A DNA stretch of 64,000 nucleotides from Actinoalloteichus hymeniacidonis (GTDB taxonomy: Bacteria; Actinomycetota; Actinomycetes; Mycobacteriales; Pseudonocardiaceae), in contig NZ_JACHIS010000001.1 of the NCBI RefSeq assembly GCF_014203365.1, positions 1,488,001-1,552,000 of the forward strand. The letters are read 5' to 3'. Positions 2,055-9,954 of the stretch are shown one piece after another (the first letter of the stretch is position 1; each line of letters opens with the position of its first letter). The position numbers and the translations under genes were made by a program. The notes under the pieces are model-generated. The model was not told where the DNA came from. It did no database searches and saw only the letters and a program-made list of their open reading frames with translations.

Positions 2055-2879
2055 TCAGTGGACATGCTCCAGATAACGCGCCGCGGTCAATTCCGCGATC
2101 TCGGCGGGATCGGTGTTCCAGATCGTCTCGTTGAAGATCTCGACCTCGATCGGCCCGGTGTACCCGGCGGCATCGACGGCCCGACGCATCCGACGAAGCT
2201 CGATGCAGCCGTCGCCCATCATTCCCCGGCCGAGCAACACGCCCTCGGGCAGCGGCGTGATCCAATCGCACACCTGGAATGCCGAGATCCGACCGGCGGC
2301 CCGCTCGATCGCGCGGTAGACATTCGGGTCCCACCAGATGTGATAGGTGTCCACGACGACCCCGACCTGCTCGGCGGGGAAGTGCATCGCAAGGTCGAGC
2401 GCCTGATCGAGAGTGGCGACGACGCACCGATCCGAGCAGAACATCGGATGCAGCGGTTCGATCGCCAAGCGGACGCCGCGCTCACCCGCATACGGCGCCA
2501 ATTCGGCCAGGGAGTCCAGCACCAGCGCGCGAGCGCCGTCGATGTCTTGGCTCCCGGCGGGCAGCCCGCCGGAGACCAGCACCAGCTCCGGGACACCGAG
2601 TTCGGCACATTCGTCGATCGCGGCCCGATTGTCGGCGAGATCCTTGATGCGTTGATCGGAATCGGGCGAGGTGAAGAATCCGCCTCGGCACATCGAGGTC
2701 GGGACCAGGTCGGTCTCGCGCAGCAACGCGGCCGTCTTGCGTAAACCGTATTCGGCCACCGGTTCGCGCCATAACCCGATACCGGGTATCTCCGCCCGCA
2801 GACAGGCCGCCACGGCACCGGGCAGATCCGCGTATTTGACGGTCGCCTGGTTGAGGCTCAATCGGCTCAGATCGCTCAC
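2055..2879 (-). CDS. Sugar phosphate isomerase/epimerase (xylose isomerase-like TIM barrel)
   Basis: A 274-residue AP-endonuclease-2/IolE-like TIM-barrel protein. The putative metal ligands fall in the expected strands: Glu141 (LAIEPLHP), Asp177 and His180 (VVDTYHIWWD), Asp205 and Glu247 (IEVEIFNE). Such enzymes isomerise or epimerise sugars, inositol derivatives or keto-acids; the substrate cannot be read from sequence. The GTG start overlaps the stop of the DUF993 gene upstream by four bases (GTGA), so the two are translationally coupled. Together with the divergent LacI regulator they look like a small sugar-catabolic operon. Confidence 0.85.
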   Translation of the reverse strand: MSDLSRLSLNQATVKYADLPGAVAACLRAEIPGIGLWREPVAEYGLRKTAALLRETDLVPTSMCRGGFFTSPDSDQRIKDLADNRAAIDECAELGVPELVLVSGGLPAGSQDIDGARALVLDSLAELAPYAGERGVRLAIEPLHPMFCSDRCVVATLDQALDLAMHFPAEQVGVVVDTYHIWWDPNVYRAIERAAGRISAFQVCDWITPLPEGVLLGRGMMGDGCIELRRMRRAVDAAGYTGPIEVEIFNETIWNTDPAEIAELTAARYLEHVH

Positions 2880-4033
2880 TGCGTCACCCCTGCCATCTCG
2901 AGGAACAGCCGCATTCGTTGCTCGGCCAACGCGGCATCGGGCAGCAGCCCCGCCTCATCGGCCAGCCGGTACAGCTGCGCCAGGTGCGCGACCGACCGTG
3001 CGCTCTCCAGGCCGCCCACCATCCGGAAGTGCTCCTGATGTCCGGACAGCCAGGCGAGGAAGACGATCCCGGTCTTGTAGTAGTAGGTGGGCGTGCCGAA
3101 GATGTGCCGGGCCAACGGCACCGTGGGCGCCAGAATCCGGTCGTAGGCGGCGGTGTCTCCGACGTCCAACGAGCGCACCGCGGCCGAAGCGGCCGGGGCG
3201 ATCGCATCGAAGATACCCAGCAGCGCGTCGCTGTGGCCCTGCTCGTCGCCCTTGATCAGCTCGGGATAGTGGAAATCGTCCCCGGTGTAGCACCGGACAC
3301 CGTCGGGAAGTCTGCGGCGCACCCCGATCTCGCGGTCGGCGTCCAACAGGGACATCTTGACGCCGTCGACCTTGTCGGCGTGATTCTTGATCACGTCGAG
3401 GAAGACCTCGGTGGCCAGATCCAGGTCCGTCGACCCCCAGTACCCGGTCAACGCCGGGTCGAACATCGGGCCGAGCCAATGCAGGATGGCGGGCGAATCG
3501 AGCTGCCCGAGCAGCGTCGAGTAGACCTGGTGATAGTCCTCGGGGCCCTTGGCGATGGCGGCCAGTCGTCGACTCGCCATCAGGATCACCGTGGCGCCCG
3601 CGTCCTGCACGACGGCGGCCTGCTCGGTGTAACCGGCGATGACCTCGTCGATGCTCGTGACGTCGTCGGCGAGCTGGTCGGTACCCGCTCCGCAGGCCAA
3701 CAGCCCGTCGACGGCCTTGGCCTCTGCTCCGCTGCGCCGAATCAGCTCGGCGGCGGTGGCCCAGTCCAGCCCCATGCCTCGCTGCGCGGTGTCCATCGCG
3801 TCGGCGACGCCCAGGCCGTGCGCCCACAGATGGCGCCGGAAGGCCATGGTGGCCTCCCAATCGGGTCGGGCGGGTTGGCCGGGTGTGTTGTCGGCGAGCG
3901 GGTCGGCCACCACGTGCGCGGCGGCATAGAGCACCCGACTCGTCGGGCTCGGACCCTTGGCATCGAGCGCGCCGCTCTCGCGGGGTCGGTAATCGAGGAA
4001 CTCGCCGGTCGAGGTGGGCAGCTTCAAAGTCAC
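2876..4033 (-). CDS. DUF993 protein (dihydrodipicolinate-synthase-like aldolase)
   Basis: About 385 residues and related to the DUF993 group of (beta/alpha)8 proteins in the DHDPS/N-acetylneuraminate lyase superfamily. Visible blocks include VILMASRRLA, AILHWLGPMFDP, DGVKMSLLD (where a lysine could be the Schiff-base residue), RCYTGDDFHYPELI and GTPTYYYKTGIVF. These genes commonly sit with a sugar isomerase and an oxidoreductase, which fits the coupled isomerase here. I chose the GTG at 4033 because GGAG lies eight bases upstream and the product begins VTLKLPT; the frame is open to 4087, but that extension runs into the promoter. First gene of the operon divergent from LacI. Confidence 0.85.
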   Translation of the reverse strand: MTLKLPTSTGEFLDYRPRESGALDAKGPSPTSRVLYAAAHVVADPLADNTPGQPARPDWEATMAFRRHLWAHGLGVADAMDTAQRGMGLDWATAAELIRRSGAEAKAVDGLLACGAGTDQLADDVTSIDEVIAGYTEQAAVVQDAGATVILMASRRLAAIAKGPEDYHQVYSTLLGQLDSPAILHWLGPMFDPALTGYWGSTDLDLATEVFLDVIKNHADKVDGVKMSLLDADREIGVRRRLPDGVRCYTGDDFHYPELIKGDEQGHSDALLGIFDAIAPAASAAVRSLDVGDTAAYDRILAPTVPLARHIFGTPTYYYKTGIVFLAWLSGHQEHFRMVGGLESARSVAHLAQLYRLADEAGLLPDAALAEQRMRLFLEMAGVTQ

Positions 4034-4121: not shown

Positions 4122-4209
4122 TGTAACCGTAAACTAAGCGCGCCAGTACGCGCTGTCAATAGCCGTGCCCCGTGTGACGAGGGCACTGGTTCGTGATCGG
4201 AGGTCGAGC

Positions 4210-5274
4210 GTGGCGCCGACGTTGGTCGATGTCGCAGCCAGAGCCGGGGTGTCCACCGCCACGGTCTCCAGGGTGCTCAATGGCAACTACCCGGTCTCAC
4301 CGGCAACCAAGGCCAGGGTGCTCAGCGCACTCCAGGAACTCGACTATGTGGTCAACGGGCCTGCCAGAGCACTGGCGGCGGCGTCCTCCGACATGCTCGG
4401 CGTGATCGTCAACGACGTCTCCGACCCGTTCTTCGGCATCCTCTCCAGCGGAATCCAATGGGAGGCGGGCGGCGCCGAACTGCTCGCGGTGATCTGCAAT
4501 ACCGCGGGCTCACCCGCCGACGAGCTGAAGTACATGCAGTTGTTGTTGCGGCAGCGGGCCAGGGCCATCGTCCTGACGGGCGGTGGGCGGGAGGACCCGG
4601 TGCACGCCGAGCGGGTCGCGCAGCTCATCCGCCAGTGTCACGAACGCGGCGCCCGCGTCGTCTTCTGTGGACGGCAGGCGCCCCCGGACAGCGAGGCCGT
4701 CAGCATCCTGTTCGACAACCGGGGCGGTGCGCGTGCTCTGACCCGGCACCTGTTGGCCATGGGACATCGACGGATCGCCTACGTGGCCGGACCCGACGTG
4801 AACACGACGACCAGTTCTCGTGCTGCGGGCCACCAGGACGCGTTGTCCGCTGCCGGACTCGATCCGGCGGAGAGCGTGATCCTGCGCGGCGACTTCTCCA
4901 GGGCATCCGGATTCGCCGCAGGCATGGAGCTGGCCCGCCGCTCGGTGGACTGCACGGCCGTGGTCGCGGCCAACGACCTCACCGCGTTGGGTGTGATGGC
5001 CGCGCTGCGGGAACAGGGCGTTCGGGTCCCCGAGGACGTCTCGGTCGCGGGCTTCGACGATCTGCCCGCCGCGATCGACGCGGCGCCTGCACTGAGCACG
5101 GTGCGACTGCCGTTGCGGGAGGCGGCGGCGAGAGCGGGCCGCCTCGCCATCGGAGCGGAGGACATGCCGGGCCCCGATGGCCTGATCTGGTTGTCCTCGG
5201 AATTGATCGTCCGTGATTCGGTGGGCACACCGGGACGCGGACTGGTCTGGGCGTTGGCGAAGACGGGACGCTGA
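4210..5274 (+). CDS. LacI/GalR-family transcriptional regulator
   Basis: The N-terminal helix-turn-helix and hinge are clear: TLVDVAARAGVSTATVSRVL then ARALAAASSDMLGVIV, followed by a periplasmic-binding-protein-like sensor (VNDVSDPFF, GHRRIAYVAGP, VVAANDLTALGVMAAL, VAGFDDLPAA). The family represses catabolic or transport operons and is released by a sugar or sugar phosphate. The GTG at 4210 is preferred: ggagg at 4199-4203 has a seven-base gap to it and the product (VAPTLVDVA) starts where LacI proteins do. The reading frame continues back to 4165, which would add 15 unneeded residues. It is divergent from the DUF993/isomerase operon, its probable target. Confidence 0.9.
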   Translation: MAPTLVDVAARAGVSTATVSRVLNGNYPVSPATKARVLSALQELDYVVNGPARALAAASSDMLGVIVNDVSDPFFGILSSGIQWEAGGAELLAVICNTAGSPADELKYMQLLLRQRARAIVLTGGGREDPVHAERVAQLIRQCHERGARVVFCGRQAPPDSEAVSILFDNRGGARALTRHLLAMGHRRIAYVAGPDVNTTTSSRAAGHQDALSAAGLDPAESVILRGDFSRASGFAAGMELARRSVDCTAVVAANDLTALGVMAALREQGVRVPEDVSVAGFDDLPAAIDAAPALSTVRLPLREAAARAGRLAIGAEDMPGPDGLIWLSSELIVRDSVGTPGRGLVWALAKTGR

Positions 5275-6020
5275 GTCCGCGCCGTCGCTCCGATACCCGC
5301 CCCGGGACCGGTGGACTGTCCGCGACGCCGCCGCAGCGGCCCTGCGCGCCGTCCACCGTTCTCGGGTCCCATCGCACCGGGATCATCCGGCGAGGCGCTT
5401 GTGGGACGAATCAGCCCCGTTTACCCGTCGGGTTGCTTTGTCCGGCGACCGACTGCGTCGATAGTCGCCCGGATGCGGAGATTTCTCCGCTAGCGCGGTG
5501 TTGTGGCCGAGACCGCAGATGGCACGCAGGCCACAGTGGAATTGGAGTACGCATCGGCACAGTTGTGACCGACATCCGTTATGCGCCGTCTGTGAGAGAC
5601 CCAACTCGCTCCGTTGCAGTGCGAGTTCGCATCCGGCGGTACTGCTTCGACGGATCTCCTGTGCATGCTCATGTTCGTTTCAGTCATGAAGGCGGCCGGT
5701 TCGGTGGATCGGTTCCGATCAGAAGGACTTGTTCGGCACCGGGCAAACAACCGTCGGCCGGACGATATTCCCGAGGCTCGCACGGCGGGAGATCACGCCA
5801 AGCGCGTTGCGGATTTCACAATCACCATCGGCCACTGGCCATCGCGGTGGGTAGGCAATACGTACCCGATAGCGATCTCGCCTTGCCGACGAAACCGGGC
5901 TTGTGTGCTGAAGCACAAAGTCTGCCCGAGACAGTGAACCGGTCACGGAGTCCAGTTCTGAACTCGTGGGCGCCCGCCGCAATGAAGATCGGCTTTTCGC
6001 GTCTGCTTTGTGTCGCCGCA

Positions 6021-6067
6021 CCCGCCCGCCAATTGGTTACTCGTCTTGGAGTAACGATGCGGGCGGG
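6021..6067. repeat. Nested two-stem inverted repeat
   Basis: Outer arms cccgcccgc (6021-6029) and gcgggcggg (6059-6067) pair perfectly; an inner pair gttactc (6036-6042) and gagtaac (6049-6055) closes on the six-base loop gtcttg. The two stems are separated by an asymmetric internal loop of six and three bases. It is not next to a stop codon, so a simple terminator is not the obvious reading; a structured RNA or protein-binding site is possible. Confidence 0.7.
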
Positions 6068-6170
6068 CGTCAGGTCGCCCATTACCCATGACCAGGTGCA
6101 TCTAGCCGATGTCGGTTCGCCCGTTTGATCGGTACGCGATCTGTGTGGGGCCTTCGACATGGGTCTTACT

Positions 6171-6227
6171 CGCCCGCGTCCCGGCACTGGTGCTGGGGTG
6201 AGTGTCCTACTGGTGCCGGGACGGGCG
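6171..6227 (-). terminator. GC-rich hairpin downstream of lsr2
   Basis: Arms at 6171-6187 (ending gtcccggcac) and 6213-6227 (starting gtgccgggac) pair with one 2-base bulge around a loop of about 25 bases. It begins 17 bases past the lsr2 stop on the minus strand, so it is probably the lsr2 terminator. Confidence 0.6.
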
Positions 6228-6243
6228 ATGCTCGAATCTTGGT

Positions 6244-6585
6244 TCAGCTCTGCTTGTCGTATGCCTCGATGACCTCGGCCGGGATACGGCCGCGGTCGGA
6301 AACCTTGAGGCCCTGAGTCCTGGCCCACTCCCGAATGGCCTGGTTGCGCTCCCGGTCGGCCTGCCCGGAAGGGGCGCCTGCGACTCGGCCACGACCCGGA
6401 CGCTTACGGCCGCCAGTGCGCCGCGCGTTGTCCATGAACGGAGTCAAAGTTTCGCGGAGTTTGTCGGCGTTGGGGGTCGAGAGGTCGATCTCGAACTCCA
6501 TGCCGTCTAGTCCGAACTTAACCGTCTGCTCTGCGACGGTGCCGTCGATGTCATCGAGTAGTTGGACGGTGACCTTCTGCGCCAC
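6244..6585 (-). CDS. lsr2: Lsr2 nucleoid-associated xenogeneic silencer
   Basis: A 113-residue Lsr2. The N-terminal dimerisation domain ([12 protein letters not shown], then [15 protein letters not shown]) is followed by a basic linker and the DNA-binding domain [22 protein letters not shown]. The AT-hook-like Arg-Gly-Arg at residues 98-100, which inserts in the minor groove of AT-rich DNA, is intact, and the C-terminus ends [10 protein letters not shown] as in the family. Lsr2 oligomerises on and silences AT-rich, often acquired DNA, and is global in actinomycetes. The start is a GTG with GAGGAG six bases upstream. It is divergent from a second, altered Lsr2 gene. Confidence 0.95.
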
Positions 6586-6918
6586 GGGGGCTCCTCAATT
6601 TCTTCGTCTGACATTCGGATGCCTATGCGTTGACCGTGAGGTCCGCGCGCGTCAAGGTATCCCACTGGACGACAATCATAAACATGGTCGGGTGGCGATG
6701 TCGCTTCACCGCTTGTCTAAGCCGCTAACGGGGCCGCTATCGGGCGTGTGGTGCTTGACGCACGTCGTAGGTATAGGTCGTCGAGGTGGGCATAGTTGCG
6801 CTCGGCTCAGCGTGGCGACCGCGGTTTCGGTGGCCTCCGTCGATTAGGTTAGAATCAGGGACGTCGCCGCAGGTCGTAAGCGGCGGCTACGCGGTACCAC
6901 GGGAAAGACTAGGTGATC
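6586..6918. other. Divergent promoter region between the two lsr2 genes
   Basis: 333 bp with no gene. It must contain the promoters of both lsr2 genes. Facing the plus-strand paralogue there is a TAGAAT hexamer at 6850-6855 that would serve as a -10 box; I could not identify a matching -35 element, nor a confident promoter for the minus-strand gene. Short AT-rich patches could be Lsr2 sites, implying autoregulation. Confidence 0.4.
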
Positions 6919-7410
6919 ATGGCCGAGCGTGTCTGCGTCGAACTGGTTGACGACCTCGACGGAGAGCCTGCCCAGCACACGGTGCAGTTCGCCTTGGACG
7001 GGGTTAACTATGAAATCGACCTCTCCGATCGCAACGCTACTTCGCTGCGCGAACTGTTGGCTCCTTATATCACGCACGGTCGTCCGGTCTCGAAGGGTAT
7101 CGAGGAAGCGGACCCCGTTCACGAACGGGTGGAGCGCAAGAAGGCCACCGACCAGATCCGTGCGGTCGCCCAGCGTTCGAAGGAACAGCACCGTGCTCGT
7201 CTAGAGGCCGCTGCCGCCGCCAGGGAGGCCGAAGTGCGCCGGGTGGCCGAGGAGCGTGCCGCCGCTCGGGGTGAGATTCCGCTGGACGTCTCCGCATTGA
7301 ACCTCGAGGCCGCCCCGAAGGCCGACGAGCCGCAGGAGCAGAAGTCGAAGCCCGAGGAGACGGGCAAGCCTTCGGTGTCGCTCCCACACTTCAGCTCCGC
7401 CAATCATTAG
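6919..7410 (+). CDS. Lsr2 paralogue with altered AT-hook (RGE in place of RGR)
   Basis: The first 50 residues align without gaps to the neighbouring Lsr2 (MAERVCVELVDDLDGEP, VQFALDGVNYEIDLS, LRELLAPY), so it should form Lsr2-type dimers and could pair with Lsr2. After residue 60 it departs: a charged Ala/Glu/Arg-rich stretch (75-117) likely to be a long helix, then RGEIPLDVSAL, which matches the RGRIPAEV motif of Lsr2 except that the second Arg of the minor-groove hook is Glu119. A 35-residue acidic, Pro/Lys-containing tail follows. DNA binding by the normal mechanism should be lost or weak. A GTG two codons earlier (6913) is an alternative start. Role inferred: modulator or antagonist of Lsr2. 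Confidence 0.8.
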   Translation: MAERVCVELVDDLDGEPAQHTVQFALDGVNYEIDLSDRNATSLRELLAPYITHGRPVSKGIEEADPVHERVERKKATDQIRAVAQRSKEQHRARLEAAAAAREAEVRRVAEERAAARGEIPLDVSALNLEAAPKADEPQEQKSKPEETGKPSVSLPHFSSANH

Positions 7411-7667
7411 AAGGCAGCACTCGCGTCGGGGCCGCCTCGTTCGGCCCGACGCCGCCTGTGCGGTGGTTCGCCTATCGGTGGAATCGCCACGTCCGTGAGC
7501 GGCCTGCCGCGTGGCCATCGACCGCTCTTCCGTCGCCGCCGTTCTTCACACAGGCGCGCTGGCGGGCCGTCGGTATCCCGAACCGAACAGTTTTCGGTCG
7601 CAAGATTTATCGGGGCTCGCCCGCCAGTGGTGAGTTCTATCGTCGAATTCCCATCCTGCGAGATCGA

Positions 7668-8735
7668 TTAATCGTTGATCTTCGGCGAATGGGAGTTCTG
7701 CTTGGCCCTCGGCGTGCTGGCGCGGATGACGACCTCGCCACGCACCCTCCGGGTTCGTGGCTCGGCGGGATCCGGGTCGAGTACCAGACCCACCGCCATC
7801 GTTCCGAGTTCCTCCAGCGGCACTCGCACCGTGGTCAGGGCGGGCGTCACGTCGCGCAGCGTCGCGATGTCGTCGAATCCCGCCACCGCCATCTCCTGCG
7901 GTAGTTCGCGTCCGAGATCGCGCAGCGCCGCCATCGCGCCGACGGCCATGACATCGTTTACCGCGAACACGCATTCGATGTCGTCCCGGCGGGCGAGCAG
8001 TTCCCGCAGCGCGTGGTAGCCGCCGTCCCGGGTGAAGTCGCCGTGCACCACCAGTTGTTCCGGTAGTTCGCCGCCCCGGTCGGCCAGCCCGTCGCGGAAG
8101 CCCGCGAGGCGATCGCGGGCCGTCATCAGATTCTCCGGTCCCCCGAGTACGCCGAAGCGTCGGTAACCGCCGTCATACAGGGCCAGGGCGAGGGAACGCG
8201 CACCCTCACGGTTCTCCAGGGTGATCGTGTCGACCTCGATGTGGCGCTGGCTGATCATCGCGACCCGGCCACCCGCCGCTTGGAAGCGGGCCAACTCGTC
8301 GGCCAGCCGATCCGCCAGCGCCTGATCGGTGACCCGGCTGCCCGCCAGCACCACGGCCTGGGCACGCTGCGCTCGCAGCGCGGCGACGTACTCGACCTCG
8401 CGCTCCGGCCTGCGCAGCGTGCTGGCCATGGTGACGATCAGCCCGTTGTCCTCGGCATGACGCATCACACCCGCGGAGATCGAGGAGAAATAGGGATCGG
8501 CGATGTCGTGCACGACGAGACCGACCACATTGGTGTGACCCCGAGCCATTGCCTGCGCCTGCGCATTGGGCGCGTAGTTCAGCGCAGCAGCCGCAGTCAT
8601 CACGCGGACCCGCAGATCTTCCCTGACCTTGCGCGGGCTGCCGTTGAGCACCCGCGACGCGGTCGCCAGTGAGACGTCGGCGGCTCGTGCCACGTCGACC
8701 AGCGTTGCGATGCCGGTCGATGGCTGATCGAACAT
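7668..8735 (-). CDS. LacI/GalR-family transcriptional regulator
   Basis: About 355 residues. Helix-turn-helix at the N-terminus (TLVDVARAADVSLATASRVL), hinge (AQAMARGHTNVVGLVV) and a ligand-binding core with VHDIADPYFSS, ISQRHIEVD, YRRFGVLGGPE, VFAVNDVMAVGAMAAL and VAGFDDIATL. The ATG at 8735 is chosen because AGGAG lies five bases upstream; the frame is open 12 codons further. It lies downstream of and on the same strand as the MalK/UgpC ATPase gene with a 124-bp gap, so it may be the local sugar-transport regulator. The ligand is unknown. The recognition-helix region (SLATASRVL) differs from that of the other LacI here (STATVSRVL). Confidence 0.9.
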   Translation of the reverse strand: MFDQPSTGIATLVDVARAADVSLATASRVLNGSPRKVREDLRVRVMTAAAALNYAPNAQAQAMARGHTNVVGLVVHDIADPYFSSISAGVMRHAEDNGLIVTMASTLRRPEREVEYVAALRAQRAQAVVLAGSRVTDQALADRLADELARFQAAGGRVAMISQRHIEVDTITLENREGARSLALALYDGGYRRFGVLGGPENLMTARDRLAGFRDGLADRGGELPEQLVVHGDFTRDGGYHALRELLARRDDIECVFAVNDVMAVGAMAALRDLGRELPQEMAVAGFDDIATLRDVTPALTTVRVPLEELGTMAVGLVLDPDPAEPRTRRVRGEVVIRASTPRAKQNSHSPKIND

Positions 8736-8859
8736 CGAGACTCCTGCCGTGGCCGACCCAGCGCCGATCACCAGCCCTGTCCAGGCAGGGGTATGCGCTT
8801 TTCATTCGCAAGCCTAGGCATGCGTATCTGGATGGGTCAAGCCACGGCCAGCGCCCCAC

Positions 8860-9954
8860 TCAGTTGGTGGTGATGCGTTGTCCGGTTTCGGGGTGGAAGA
8901 GGTGGGTGTGGTGGGGGGTGGTGAGGGTGGCGGTGATGGTTTGGCCGATGGTGGGTGGGTTGTGGGCGTCGGCGCGGACGATGAAGCGTTCGGGGGTGTC
9001 GGTGTTGGTGGTGGTGGCGTAGACGTAGGCGTCGGCGCCGAGTTCTTCGACGAGGTCGACGGTGAGTCCGATGCCGGGTTGGTTGTTGGTGGTGAGGGTG
9101 AGGTTCTCGGGGCGGATGCCGAGGGTGATGGTGGTGGTGTTGAGGGTTTTCTGGGTTTCGGGGGTGAGGGGGATGGTGAGGCCGTCGAGTTGGGCGCCTT
9201 GGGGGGTGAGGGTGGCGGTTTTGAGGTTCATGGCGGGGGAGCCCATGAAGCCGGCGACGAAGGCGTTGGTGGGGGTGTCGTAGAGGGCGCGGGGGGTGTC
9301 GCATTGTTGGAGGAGTCCGTCTTTGAGGACGGCGACGCGGTGGCCCATGGTCATGGCCTCGACTTGGTCGTGGGTGACGTAGATGGTGGTGGTGTCGAGG
9401 CGTTGTTGGAGGGCGGCGATGTTGGCGCGGGTTTCGACGCGGAGTTTGGCGTCGAGGTTGGAGAGGGGTTCGTCCATGAGGAAGACGGAGGGTTCGCGGA
9501 CGATGGCGCGGCCCATGGCGACGCGTTGGCGTTGTCCGCCGGAGAGGGCTTTGGGTTTGCGGTCGAGGTAGTTGGTGAGGTCGAGCATGCGGGCGGCTTC
9601 GTCGACCTTGGTTTTGATCTGGTCTTTGGGGGTGCGGCGGAGTTTGAGGGCGAAGCCCATGTTCTCGGCGACGGTCATGTGGGGGTAGAGGGCGTAGGAC
9701 TGGAAGACCATGGCGATGTCGCGGCCCTTGGGTGGGGTGTGGGTGACGTCGCGGCCGCCGATGTGGATGGCGCCTTCGTCGATGTCCTCGAGTCCGGCGA
9801 GCATGCGTAGGGCGGTGGATTTCCCGGACCCGGAGGGGCCGACCAGGACGAGGAACTCGCCGTCGGCGACCTCGAGATCGAGTTGGTCCACGGCCTTGAC
9901 CGGTGGGGTTCCGGTGAACACCCGAGAAGCACCCCTGTAAGCCACATCGGCCAT
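8860..9954 (-). CDS. ugpC: Sugar ABC transporter ATPase, MalK/UgpC/MsmX type
   Basis: A 364-residue ATPase with Walker A GPSGSGKST, Q-loop FQSYALYPH, signature LSGGQRQR, Walker B VFLMDEPLSNLDAKLR and H-loop YVTHDQ. The C-terminal third is the TOBE/OB regulatory domain of the MalK group (IRPENL, ELGADAYVY, HLFHPETGQRI). No permease or binding protein is adjacent, so it is probably a shared ATPase energising several CUT1 sugar importers, as known for MsmX/MsiK. Codon use is striking: Leu is almost only CTC, Val GTC, Gln often CAA and Gly often GGA, whereas neighbours prefer CTG, GTG and CAG. The + strand therefore shows long G/T-rich runs. An operator-like word lies 62 bp upstream. Confidence 0.9.
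   Translation of the reverse strand: MADVAYRGASRVFTGTPPVKAVDQLDLEVADGEFLVLVGPSGSGKSTALRMLAGLEDIDEGAIHIGGRDVTHTPPKGRDIAMVFQSYALYPHMTVAENMGFALKLRRTPKDQIKTKVDEAARMLDLTNYLDRKPKALSGGQRQRVAMGRAIVREPSVFLMDEPLSNLDAKLRVETRANIAALQQRLDTTTIYVTHDQVEAMTMGHRVAVLKDGLLQQCDTPRALYDTPTNAFVAGFMGSPAMNLKTATLTPQGAQLDGLTIPLTPETQKTLNTTTITLGIRPENLTLTTNNQPGIGLTVDLVEELGADAYVYATTTNTDTPERFIVRADAHNPPTIGQTITATLTTPHHTHLFHPETGQRITTN

Follow-up and report, generated by a model that had tools for sequence, protein, structure and literature searches.

The closest described counterparts of the protein analysed here are H-NST and a truncated form of CgpS. H-NST, found in enteropathogenic and uropathogenic Escherichia coli, consists of a silencer dimerisation part without the DNA-binding domain (PMC7074111, PMC6936261); it antagonises H-NS and has been reported to bind DNA itself (PMC7074111). 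The N-terminal part of CgpS, the Lsr2-like silencer of the CGP3 prophage, can act as a dominant-negative (PMC7074111, PMC12239563). Among chromosomal Lsr2 paralogues, LsrL of Streptomyces (PMC6584129) and MSMEG_1060 of Mycobacterium smegmatis (PMC8125055) have been described, and Lsr2 represses its paralogue genes in both hosts; MSMEG_1060 has no Q/RGR, yet it binds DNA (PMC8125055). A review of 2019 calls truncated Lsr2 derivatives "unidentified" and Lsr2 heteromers only "predicted" (PMC6936261). As for Lsr2 of M. tuberculosis, ten core residues of the dimer and an Asp28-Arg45 salt bridge have been named by Summers et al., and the dimers link into chains via the N-terminal strand, in which Lys4 makes key contacts (PMC3374832).

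The locus under study lies in a stretch of 64 kb (hereafter the window) that is part of a single 6.3 Mb contig of Actinoalloteichus hymeniacidonis. The 163-aa open reading frame proposed by a sequence-only reading, back to back with an lsr2 gene that keeps an intact SDRGRIP, was confirmed together with the 333 bp that separate the two:

6244..6585, minus strand: lsr2 partner gene, divergent; 113 aa, GTG start, with PF11774, PF23359 and the intact SDRGRIP
6586..6918, no strand: intergenic region common to the divergent pair; 333 bp, GC 0.60
6919..7410, plus strand: Lsr2 paralogue without the Lsr2 DNA-binding domain; 163 aa, ATG start, stop included

With a mean GC of 0.60 vs. about 0.66, the DNA between the two genes shows no more than a slight enrichment in AT. 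A third Lsr2 is encoded elsewhere in the genome, at 5,963,800; it is probably the housekeeping copy because the adjoining frame reads as what we take to be a lysyl-tRNA synthetase. On either side of the lsr2 pair lie genes presumed, from their translations, to encode LacI-type regulators (window 4165-5274, plus strand, and 7668-8771, minus strand). The gene of an ABC-transporter ATPase (window 8860-9954, minus strand) has an unusually Thr/Asn-rich coding and an extreme strand skew in its far half, with a GC skew of 0.51 at 9001-9500. Among the loci compared, the nearest named relatives are Actinoalloteichus caeruleus (L060) and A. spitiensis (L059), with an identity of 49-50% for the paralogue and 85-86% for the partner.

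The group to which the paralogue belongs was defined from 36 proteins, namely the window protein, those of 31 related loci and those of L005, L006, L145 and L149; the other 48 of the 79 loci returned by the related-locus search match at most residues 1-124, mostly about 1-58, and were left out, L087 being the one among them that was opened. Members of the group have a common plan, made up of a dimerisation domain, a charged helix, a variable linker and a C-terminal peptide, which in the window protein, on the plus strand throughout, are placed as follows:

6919..7089, plus strand: Lsr2 dimerisation domain, residues 1-57; PF11774 at E 1.3e-26, best PDB match 4e1p
6925..6942, plus strand: strand that links Lsr2 dimers into chains, residues 3-8; positions 3, 4, 6 and 8 diagnostic
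7114..7269, plus strand: long charged helix (predicted), residues 66-117; AlphaFold2 pLDDT 83-87 over 71-110 and 67 over 111-120
7147..7176, plus strand: helix motif T77-x-x-I80-R81-x-x-A84-x-R86; invariant columns in a 32-protein alignment
7267..7275, plus strand: RGE tripeptide (residues 117-119), where the predicted helix ends; present in 3/36 relatives and so not conserved
7276..7368, plus strand: variable linker, predicted disordered, residues 120-150; pLDDT below 50 over residues 121-146
7369..7407, plus strand: conserved C-terminal peptide PSVSLPHFSSANH, residues 151-163; PxFS in 36/36

The dimerisation domain is matched by PF11774 in all 32 paralogues scanned, and 4e1p is the best structural relative (profile E 1.6e-18, fold E 2e-3); beyond it the fold search gave no match at E 0.001. 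The AlphaFold models are single chains of moderate confidence, with a mean pLDDT of 66 and 63. The charged helix that had been noted ahead of the RGE is indeed predicted, over residues 66-117; its IRxxAxR motif is present in 36/36 paralogues, and Arg70, Arg81 and Arg86 are invariant in the 32-protein alignment. Of eight relatives, the window protein counted in, six carry a charge of +7 to +9 in the helix region and the other two +2 and +3. The whole part after the dimerisation domain has a mean charge of -3.9 in the window's class as against +5.7 in partner Lsr2. Searches of Pfam, PHROGs and the PDB found no known DNA-binding domain in the window paralogue, the helix region of which is basic.

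Between the helix motif and the C-terminal motif, the 36 paralogues have 43-80 residues of non-conserved sequence. The PxFS that follows is at most eight residues from the end in 36/36, and the longer form V-x-[LM]-P-x-F-S-S-A is found in 33/36. A pattern search of the window's genome gave two matches, i.e. the paralogue gene and one antisense to another gene, with no second occurrence on a sense strand. A profile of the tail alone, run on 21 genomes, recovered the paralogue gene in four and gave one weak match in a further genome (G003, E 0.0098). A possible likeness of the peptide to the FtsZ C-terminal peptide was considered.

Set against the described systems, the paralogue resembles H-NST in having the dimerisation part of a silencer without a DNA-binding domain; it differs from it in homology (to Lsr2 instead of H-NS), in that H-NST lies on genomic islands, and in having a conserved helix and C-terminal peptide, neither of which is described for H-NST in the excerpts consulted. 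Furthermore, the antagonism of H-NST was shown by experiment and the paralogue is known here from its sequence. The truncated CgpS has the Lsr2-type dimerisation domain and no DNA-binding domain, as does the paralogue, but it is a laboratory-made product without an added helix or C-terminal peptide (PMC7074111, PMC12239563). LsrL and MSMEG_1060 are, like the paralogue, chromosomal Lsr2 paralogues (PMC6584129, PMC8125055); MSMEG_1060 is a DNA-binding protein with a basic tail, the window protein has an acidic tail and is missing the Lsr2 DNA-binding domain, and no divergent coupling with lsr2 is mentioned for LsrL or MSMEG_1060 in the excerpts consulted. Compared with Lsr2 of M. tuberculosis and its actinobacterial relatives, finally, the paralogue has the dimerisation domain seen in 4e1p and differs by the lack of PF23359 and of the RGR hook, by altered residues 3-8 and by the extra helix, linker and C-terminal peptide. 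A search of the open-licence PMC literature, by title or start of abstract, returned no paper on the window paralogue.

According to the sequence-only reading, the protein would be an Lsr2 in which Glu119 has replaced the second Arg of the AT-hook. An RGE does occupy residues 117-119, and a global alignment sets it under the RGR of Lsr2, but its interpretation as an altered hook did not hold. The N-terminal halves of the paralogue and the partner Lsr2 align with a score of 154, the best of 2000 shuffles reaching 52, and a profile-profile comparison of the dimerisation domains of paralogue and Lsr2 gives E 5.6e-28; the identity of 28/52 or 29/58 is thus far above chance, though short of the "almost residue for residue" agreement that had been claimed. 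When the paralogue tail is aligned with the C-terminal half of Lsr2, 824 of 2000 shuffles score equally high, so that homology is not significant, and profile-profile comparison of the two tails gives E 0.77 with a probability of 0.06% (best pairing IRGAAQ/IREWAR), the IRxxA present in both being the sole hint of tail homology. PF23359, the Lsr2 DNA-binding domain, was found by Pfam scan in 0/32 paralogues vs. 23/23 partner Lsr2s (that of the window plus 22 of the 30 from named loci). RGRIP occurs in 0/36 paralogues, and a single RGR, in L060, sits inside the helix.

The RGE itself is no conserved feature. Whether RGE with an acidic tail defines a clade had been put forward as a check; of the 36 distinct relatives, three have the tripeptide, and these belong without exception to the window's genus. 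Neither is it a singleton in an otherwise RGR clade, since the clade is without any hook (RGR hook in 0/36). The columns of R117 and G118 are gaps in most relatives; that of E119 holds Glu in at least 90% of rows in one alignment and not in the other, lies in a gappy acidic linker and was given no weight. When the tail is shuffled, 29% of the resulting sequences contain RG and 4.7% contain RGE. A mutated hook was therefore rejected, on the tail alignment at shuffle level, the lack of PF23359, the 3/36 occurrence and the helix predicted to residue 117. By these comparisons the Lsr2 DNA-binding domain is absent altogether from the paralogue rather than point-mutated; the argument from one Arg-to-Glu change falls with it, and what the sequence bears out is a relative of Lsr2 that is competent to dimerise, has lost the minor-groove domain and is encoded back to back with Lsr2. 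What the group conserves is the loss of the entire domain, the helix motif and a C-terminal peptide that the sequence-only reading had not noticed.

The dimer core is well preserved. By alignment to 4e1p, nine of the twelve residues named in the excerpted account of the M. tuberculosis structure are identical in 36/36 paralogues; of the others, the core Trp is Tyr in 36/36, the salt-bridge Asp (D27 in paralogue numbering) is D in 35 and E in one, and L47 is L, F or I. At six positions (3, 4, 6, 8, 19 and 23) 32 paralogues and 32 Lsr2s have no residue in common, the Lsr2 rows being 23 partner and nine housekeeping sequences with the diverged L149 copy left out; this copy carries Lys4 and Glu19, and on its inclusion only positions 3, 6, 8 and 23 still separate the two sets. 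Four of the six diagnostic positions fall in residues 3-8, the strand through which Lsr2 dimers are linked (P about 5e-4, for a count chosen after seeing the data). This hints at a paralogue that would be able to dimerise and altered in chain growth, which is the best indication of mechanism that the sequence offers.

The paralogue was found in 37/37 sampled genomes belonging to nine of the 46 genera sampled from the host family and in 0/163 others (200 genomes in total), the latter figure resting on the family listing, on 18 long matches opened from other genera and on the order-wide profile search. In G128 only residues 1-93 were matched in the family listing and the full length in the profile search, and in G160 and G173 the matches end at residue 130, yet the C-terminal motif is present when the loci are read (L024, L028). 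Across the order (397 genomes), matches of full length reach at least 177 bits and the next, besides extra copies in Saccharopolyspora spinosa, 104, with a diverged full-length S. spinosa copy at 140 bits; no full-length match lies outside the host family. When 396 genomes of the phylum were searched at E 1e-24, the window's own was the one genome to match. The genera named among the carriers are Saccharopolyspora, Actinopolyspora, Actinoalloteichus, Halopolyspora and Halosaccharopolyspora. On a tree of the dimerisation domain (57 columns, too few for finer branching) the paralogues form one group with a support of 99/97, or 95/97 with more classes included. The partner-type Lsr2 is not separable by score from other Lsr2 (window partner 189.2 bits, G017 188.8). 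In none of the 325 phage and 219 plasmid records with a match did it cover at least 80% of the query, and three proteins taken from such records all have the DNA-binding domain; given the short PHROG 6509 (70 positions), Lsr2s of small size may be encoded by phages. A contig recorded as Vibrio cholerae strain 35D (WNZI01000003.1, L087) contains an Lsr2 relative with 52% identity over residues 1-85, and is probably an actinomycete contamination of that assembly.

A divergent lsr2 accompanies the paralogue at 30/30 loci read, 281-408 bp apart (30 of the 37 carrier genomes), and at 30/31 named loci, many from the same genomes; at the exception, the second S. spinosa copy L080, no lsr2 was found beside it by sequence pattern. 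The paralogue is open and of full length in 30/30 loci read. S. spinosa also has a second, diverged divergent pair of Lsr2 and paralogue (L149, 2288-2743, minus strand, and 2851-3321, plus strand), which keeps the same anatomy, and, close to the intact paralogue, further copies that are incomplete or broken (L148, 3237-5394). Distances among paralogues and among partners are correlated (r 0.89, 0/2000 permutations), a value that shared species descent would also give, and the co-inheritance with the divergent lsr2 would likewise follow from descent. In each of the three species sets compared, identity drops sharply directly downstream of the paralogue, and the fall past lsr2 is less steep; L007 and L008, a close pair, remain similar in the upstream flank. 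Facing the lsr2 side in Saccharopolyspora and Actinopolyspora are what we take, from the translations, to be genes of polyamine metabolism (a speD-like gene, a spermidine synthase-like gene and a decarboxylase gene). The speD-like and decarboxylase gene groups are common to 26 and 25 of 29 loci compared (L061-L094, about 3.9-6 kb on the lsr2 side); the flanks in the Actinoalloteichus group differ from these, with neither gene in the window.

The 18 long matches from other genera comprised 12 paralogues with a basic tail and no Lsr2 DNA-binding domain, as judged by a model built here from Lsr2 sequences, five Lsr2s with the domain and one of a third, short type with a different end (L211, from G017). 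The idea that the window's class is the only Lsr2 relative of the family without a DNA-binding domain was rejected by those 12. The second class was thereafter represented by the following set:

L197-L205, L209, L210, L214-L248, L250 and L251: basic-tail Lsr2 paralogues, in nine other genera of the same family

Thirty-six of these paralogues were opened, from 36 genomes of nine genera, and six further genomes, left unopened, score alike; a profile of the first 75 residues, run on the 200 genomes and on 249 genomes of the order, found such paralogues in the host family only. In the sample the nine genera of this class and the nine of the window's class do not overlap, and on the dimerisation-domain tree the two are separate groups (support 95/97 for the window's class and 99/99 for the basic-tail class). 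Both have the Lsr2 dimerisation domain, lack the Lsr2 DNA-binding domain and have related ends of the P-x-V-x-F-S kind; the basic-tail class differs in the absence of the helix motif, in being unpaired, in the genera that carry it and, in nearly all members, in a long, positive, histone-H1-like Ala/Lys-rich tail, with charges from +8 to about +62, by which it probably binds DNA. P-x-V-x-F-S-[AS] is present in 36/36 basic-tail paralogues, at most eight residues from the end in 35 (the end of L251 being longer). In the window's class P-x-V-x(1-4)-F-S-[AS] is found in 28/32 strictly and in 31/32 with Ser allowed for Pro, and FS[SA] near the end is found in 0/23 partner Lsr2s. The end of L226, VPAVPPVRFSAADD, has exactly the spacing of the window's class (VPAVSLPQFSSAVD in L020 and others). 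At 30/30 loci the basic-tail paralogue has no lsr2 in the surrounding 1.5 kb or so, and the peptide is thus independent of pairing; as read from these sequences, it tracks loss of the DNA-binding domain, not tail charge or the neighbouring lsr2.

Rates of substitution point to purifying selection on the paralogue. In the window's genus, comparison of the three species gives the paralogue a dN/dS of 0.14-0.18 (0.21-0.43 in its looser last third) and the partner one of 0.00-0.012; in other groups the whole-gene value for the paralogue ranges from 0.12 to 0.40, and that for the last third reaches 0.66 in Actinopolyspora pairs. Moreover, the start of the gene is conserved at the nucleotide level:

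6873..6963, plus strand: leader and first 15 codons, matching a stretch conserved at the nucleotide level in relatives
6911-6918, plus strand: Shine-Dalgarno-like AGGTGATC, in the leader

This conservation was seen in L059-L094, around 5955-6045. In the Saccharopolyspora-Actinopolyspora set the leader directly upstream of the paralogue is nearly invariant, and synonymous identity over paralogue codons 2-9 is 0.967 vs. 0.55-0.80 further on (29 sequences); the same codons of the partner gene reach 0.66 (28 sequences). Within the window's genus, codons 1-58 of the paralogue have a dS of 0.05-0.07 and codons 59-118 one of 0.38-1.40. An RNA element was considered and rejected: six leader segments from five sources folded no better than shuffles (z 0.37 to 1.48), and no Rfam family exceeded its threshold in window 5200-8800. 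Without structure above shuffles, a DNA operator or a translation-start element is the more likely cause of the conservation. The start region AGGTGATCATGG contains GATCAT, fitting the Gbn consensus GATC(A/T)T as stated in an abstract (PMC9239103), and this hexamer may equally be just the Shine-Dalgarno sequence and start codon.

The anatomy, the conservation and the pairing of the paralogue are established by the comparisons above. As for its role, we put at about even the chance that it is a naturally occurring partner of Lsr2, devoid of the latter's DNA-binding domain, that docks on the silencer, modulates it and displays a peptide. In favour of this are the conserved dimer core, the missing domain, the altered chain strand, the pairing with lsr2, the single well-supported group, the purifying selection, the end peptide of both classes, the two truncated precedents and the repression of paralogue genes by Lsr2 in M. 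smegmatis and Streptomyces. Through the common dimerisation domain the paralogue would enter Lsr2 assemblies, in which mixed dimers would carry one DNA-binding arm, not two; because the chain-forming N-terminal strand is altered, it could cap or re-space Lsr2 filaments, and the C-terminal peptide might recruit a further protein to DNA coated with Lsr2. Silencing would most likely be tuned or relieved on balance. The precedents of H-NST and truncated CgpS make an anti-silencer a reasonable reading, and anti-silencing by the paralogue is plausible; an H-NST-like way of working would involve hetero-association with the silencer and relief of silencing. The main weight is placed on docking, tuning and the peptide and less on relief, in view of the DNA binding of MSMEG_1060 and of the conserved end peptide. 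In fact, a simple dominant-negative would need no conserved C-terminal peptide, least of all one common to the basic-tail class, and the lack of Q/RGR alone does not prove a lack of DNA binding, as MSMEG_1060 binds DNA without it (PMC8125055). The DNA binding reported for H-NST itself, the basic helix region, the only slight AT-richness between the two genes and the L080 copy, with no lsr2 found beside it, also weigh against the reading.

Other explanations place the protein differently with respect to Lsr2. It could be an adaptor or co-silencer that docks on Lsr2 filaments and recruits another protein by its peptide, silencing being left intact or strengthened. Hha, which works with H-NS, offers an analogy. 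The PxFS held in 36/36 behind a linker that is not conserved and is predicted disordered, the related end peptide in all 36 opened basic-tail paralogues and the uniqueness of the motif on the sense strand of the window's genome speak for such a protein; the dimer with Lsr2 is as conjectural here as in the docking and tuning reading. We consider an adaptor possible yet on the unlikely side, an estimate raised slightly because the end peptide is common to the basic-tail class. A good deal less probable is a separate nucleoid protein, whose homodimers would bind DNA by the charged helix, with no AT-hook and not via Lsr2. MSMEG_1060, binding DNA with a basic tail and no Q/RGR (PMC8125055), is a precedent for it, the basic-tail class probably binds DNA by its tails (+8 to about +62), and the helix segment is net positive with its three invariant Arg; on the other hand the residues that follow the dimerisation domain have a negative mean net charge (-3.9 vs. 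+5.7 in partner Lsr2), the Pfam, PHROGs and PDB searches yielded no DNA-binding domain, and the fixed position beside lsr2 would be left unexplained.

An Lsr2 whose AT-hook was disabled by the single Arg-to-Glu change is very improbable, for although RGE stands under RGR in the global alignment, with a Glu column of 90% in one alignment, it is found in 3/36, the tail alignment does not rise above shuffles, there is no DNA-binding domain around it and the helix is predicted to run to residue 117. Equally hard to credit, and if anything more so, is a decaying, functionless lsr2 duplicate: the rapid evolution of the last third (dN/dS as high as 0.66 in Actinopolyspora pairs) and the broken copies of S. 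spinosa speak for it, but the gene is open and of full length in 30/30 loci, its dN/dS in the window's genus is 0.14-0.18, and the N-terminal domain, the helix motif and the C-terminal peptide are all conserved.

To return to a partner that docks on Lsr2 and tunes it, a wider proposal, which we hold tentatively and think somewhat less likely than not, is a dedicated family of Lsr2 co-factors. Its members would ride on the filaments by the common dimerisation domain, change filament growth by an altered first strand and recruit one specific cellular machine to silenced DNA by the P-x-V...F-S-[SA] peptide. Its two forms, one basic-tailed and unpaired, the other acidic, helix-bearing and tied to a divergent lsr2, do not overlap among the genera sampled, and the family would provide a built-in switch of xenogeneic silencing in antibiotic producers. 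The paralogue is a concrete candidate both for the truncated Lsr2 derivative and for the Lsr2 heteromer partner. Actinomycetes that are named and can be cultured, Saccharopolyspora spinosa for one, have it fixed next to lsr2, and the second class extends the candidate to other genera. If the paralogue loosens or redirects Lsr2, the existence and role of Lsr2 hetero-oligomers would become directly testable, and these organisms would possess a native handle on their silent gene clusters.
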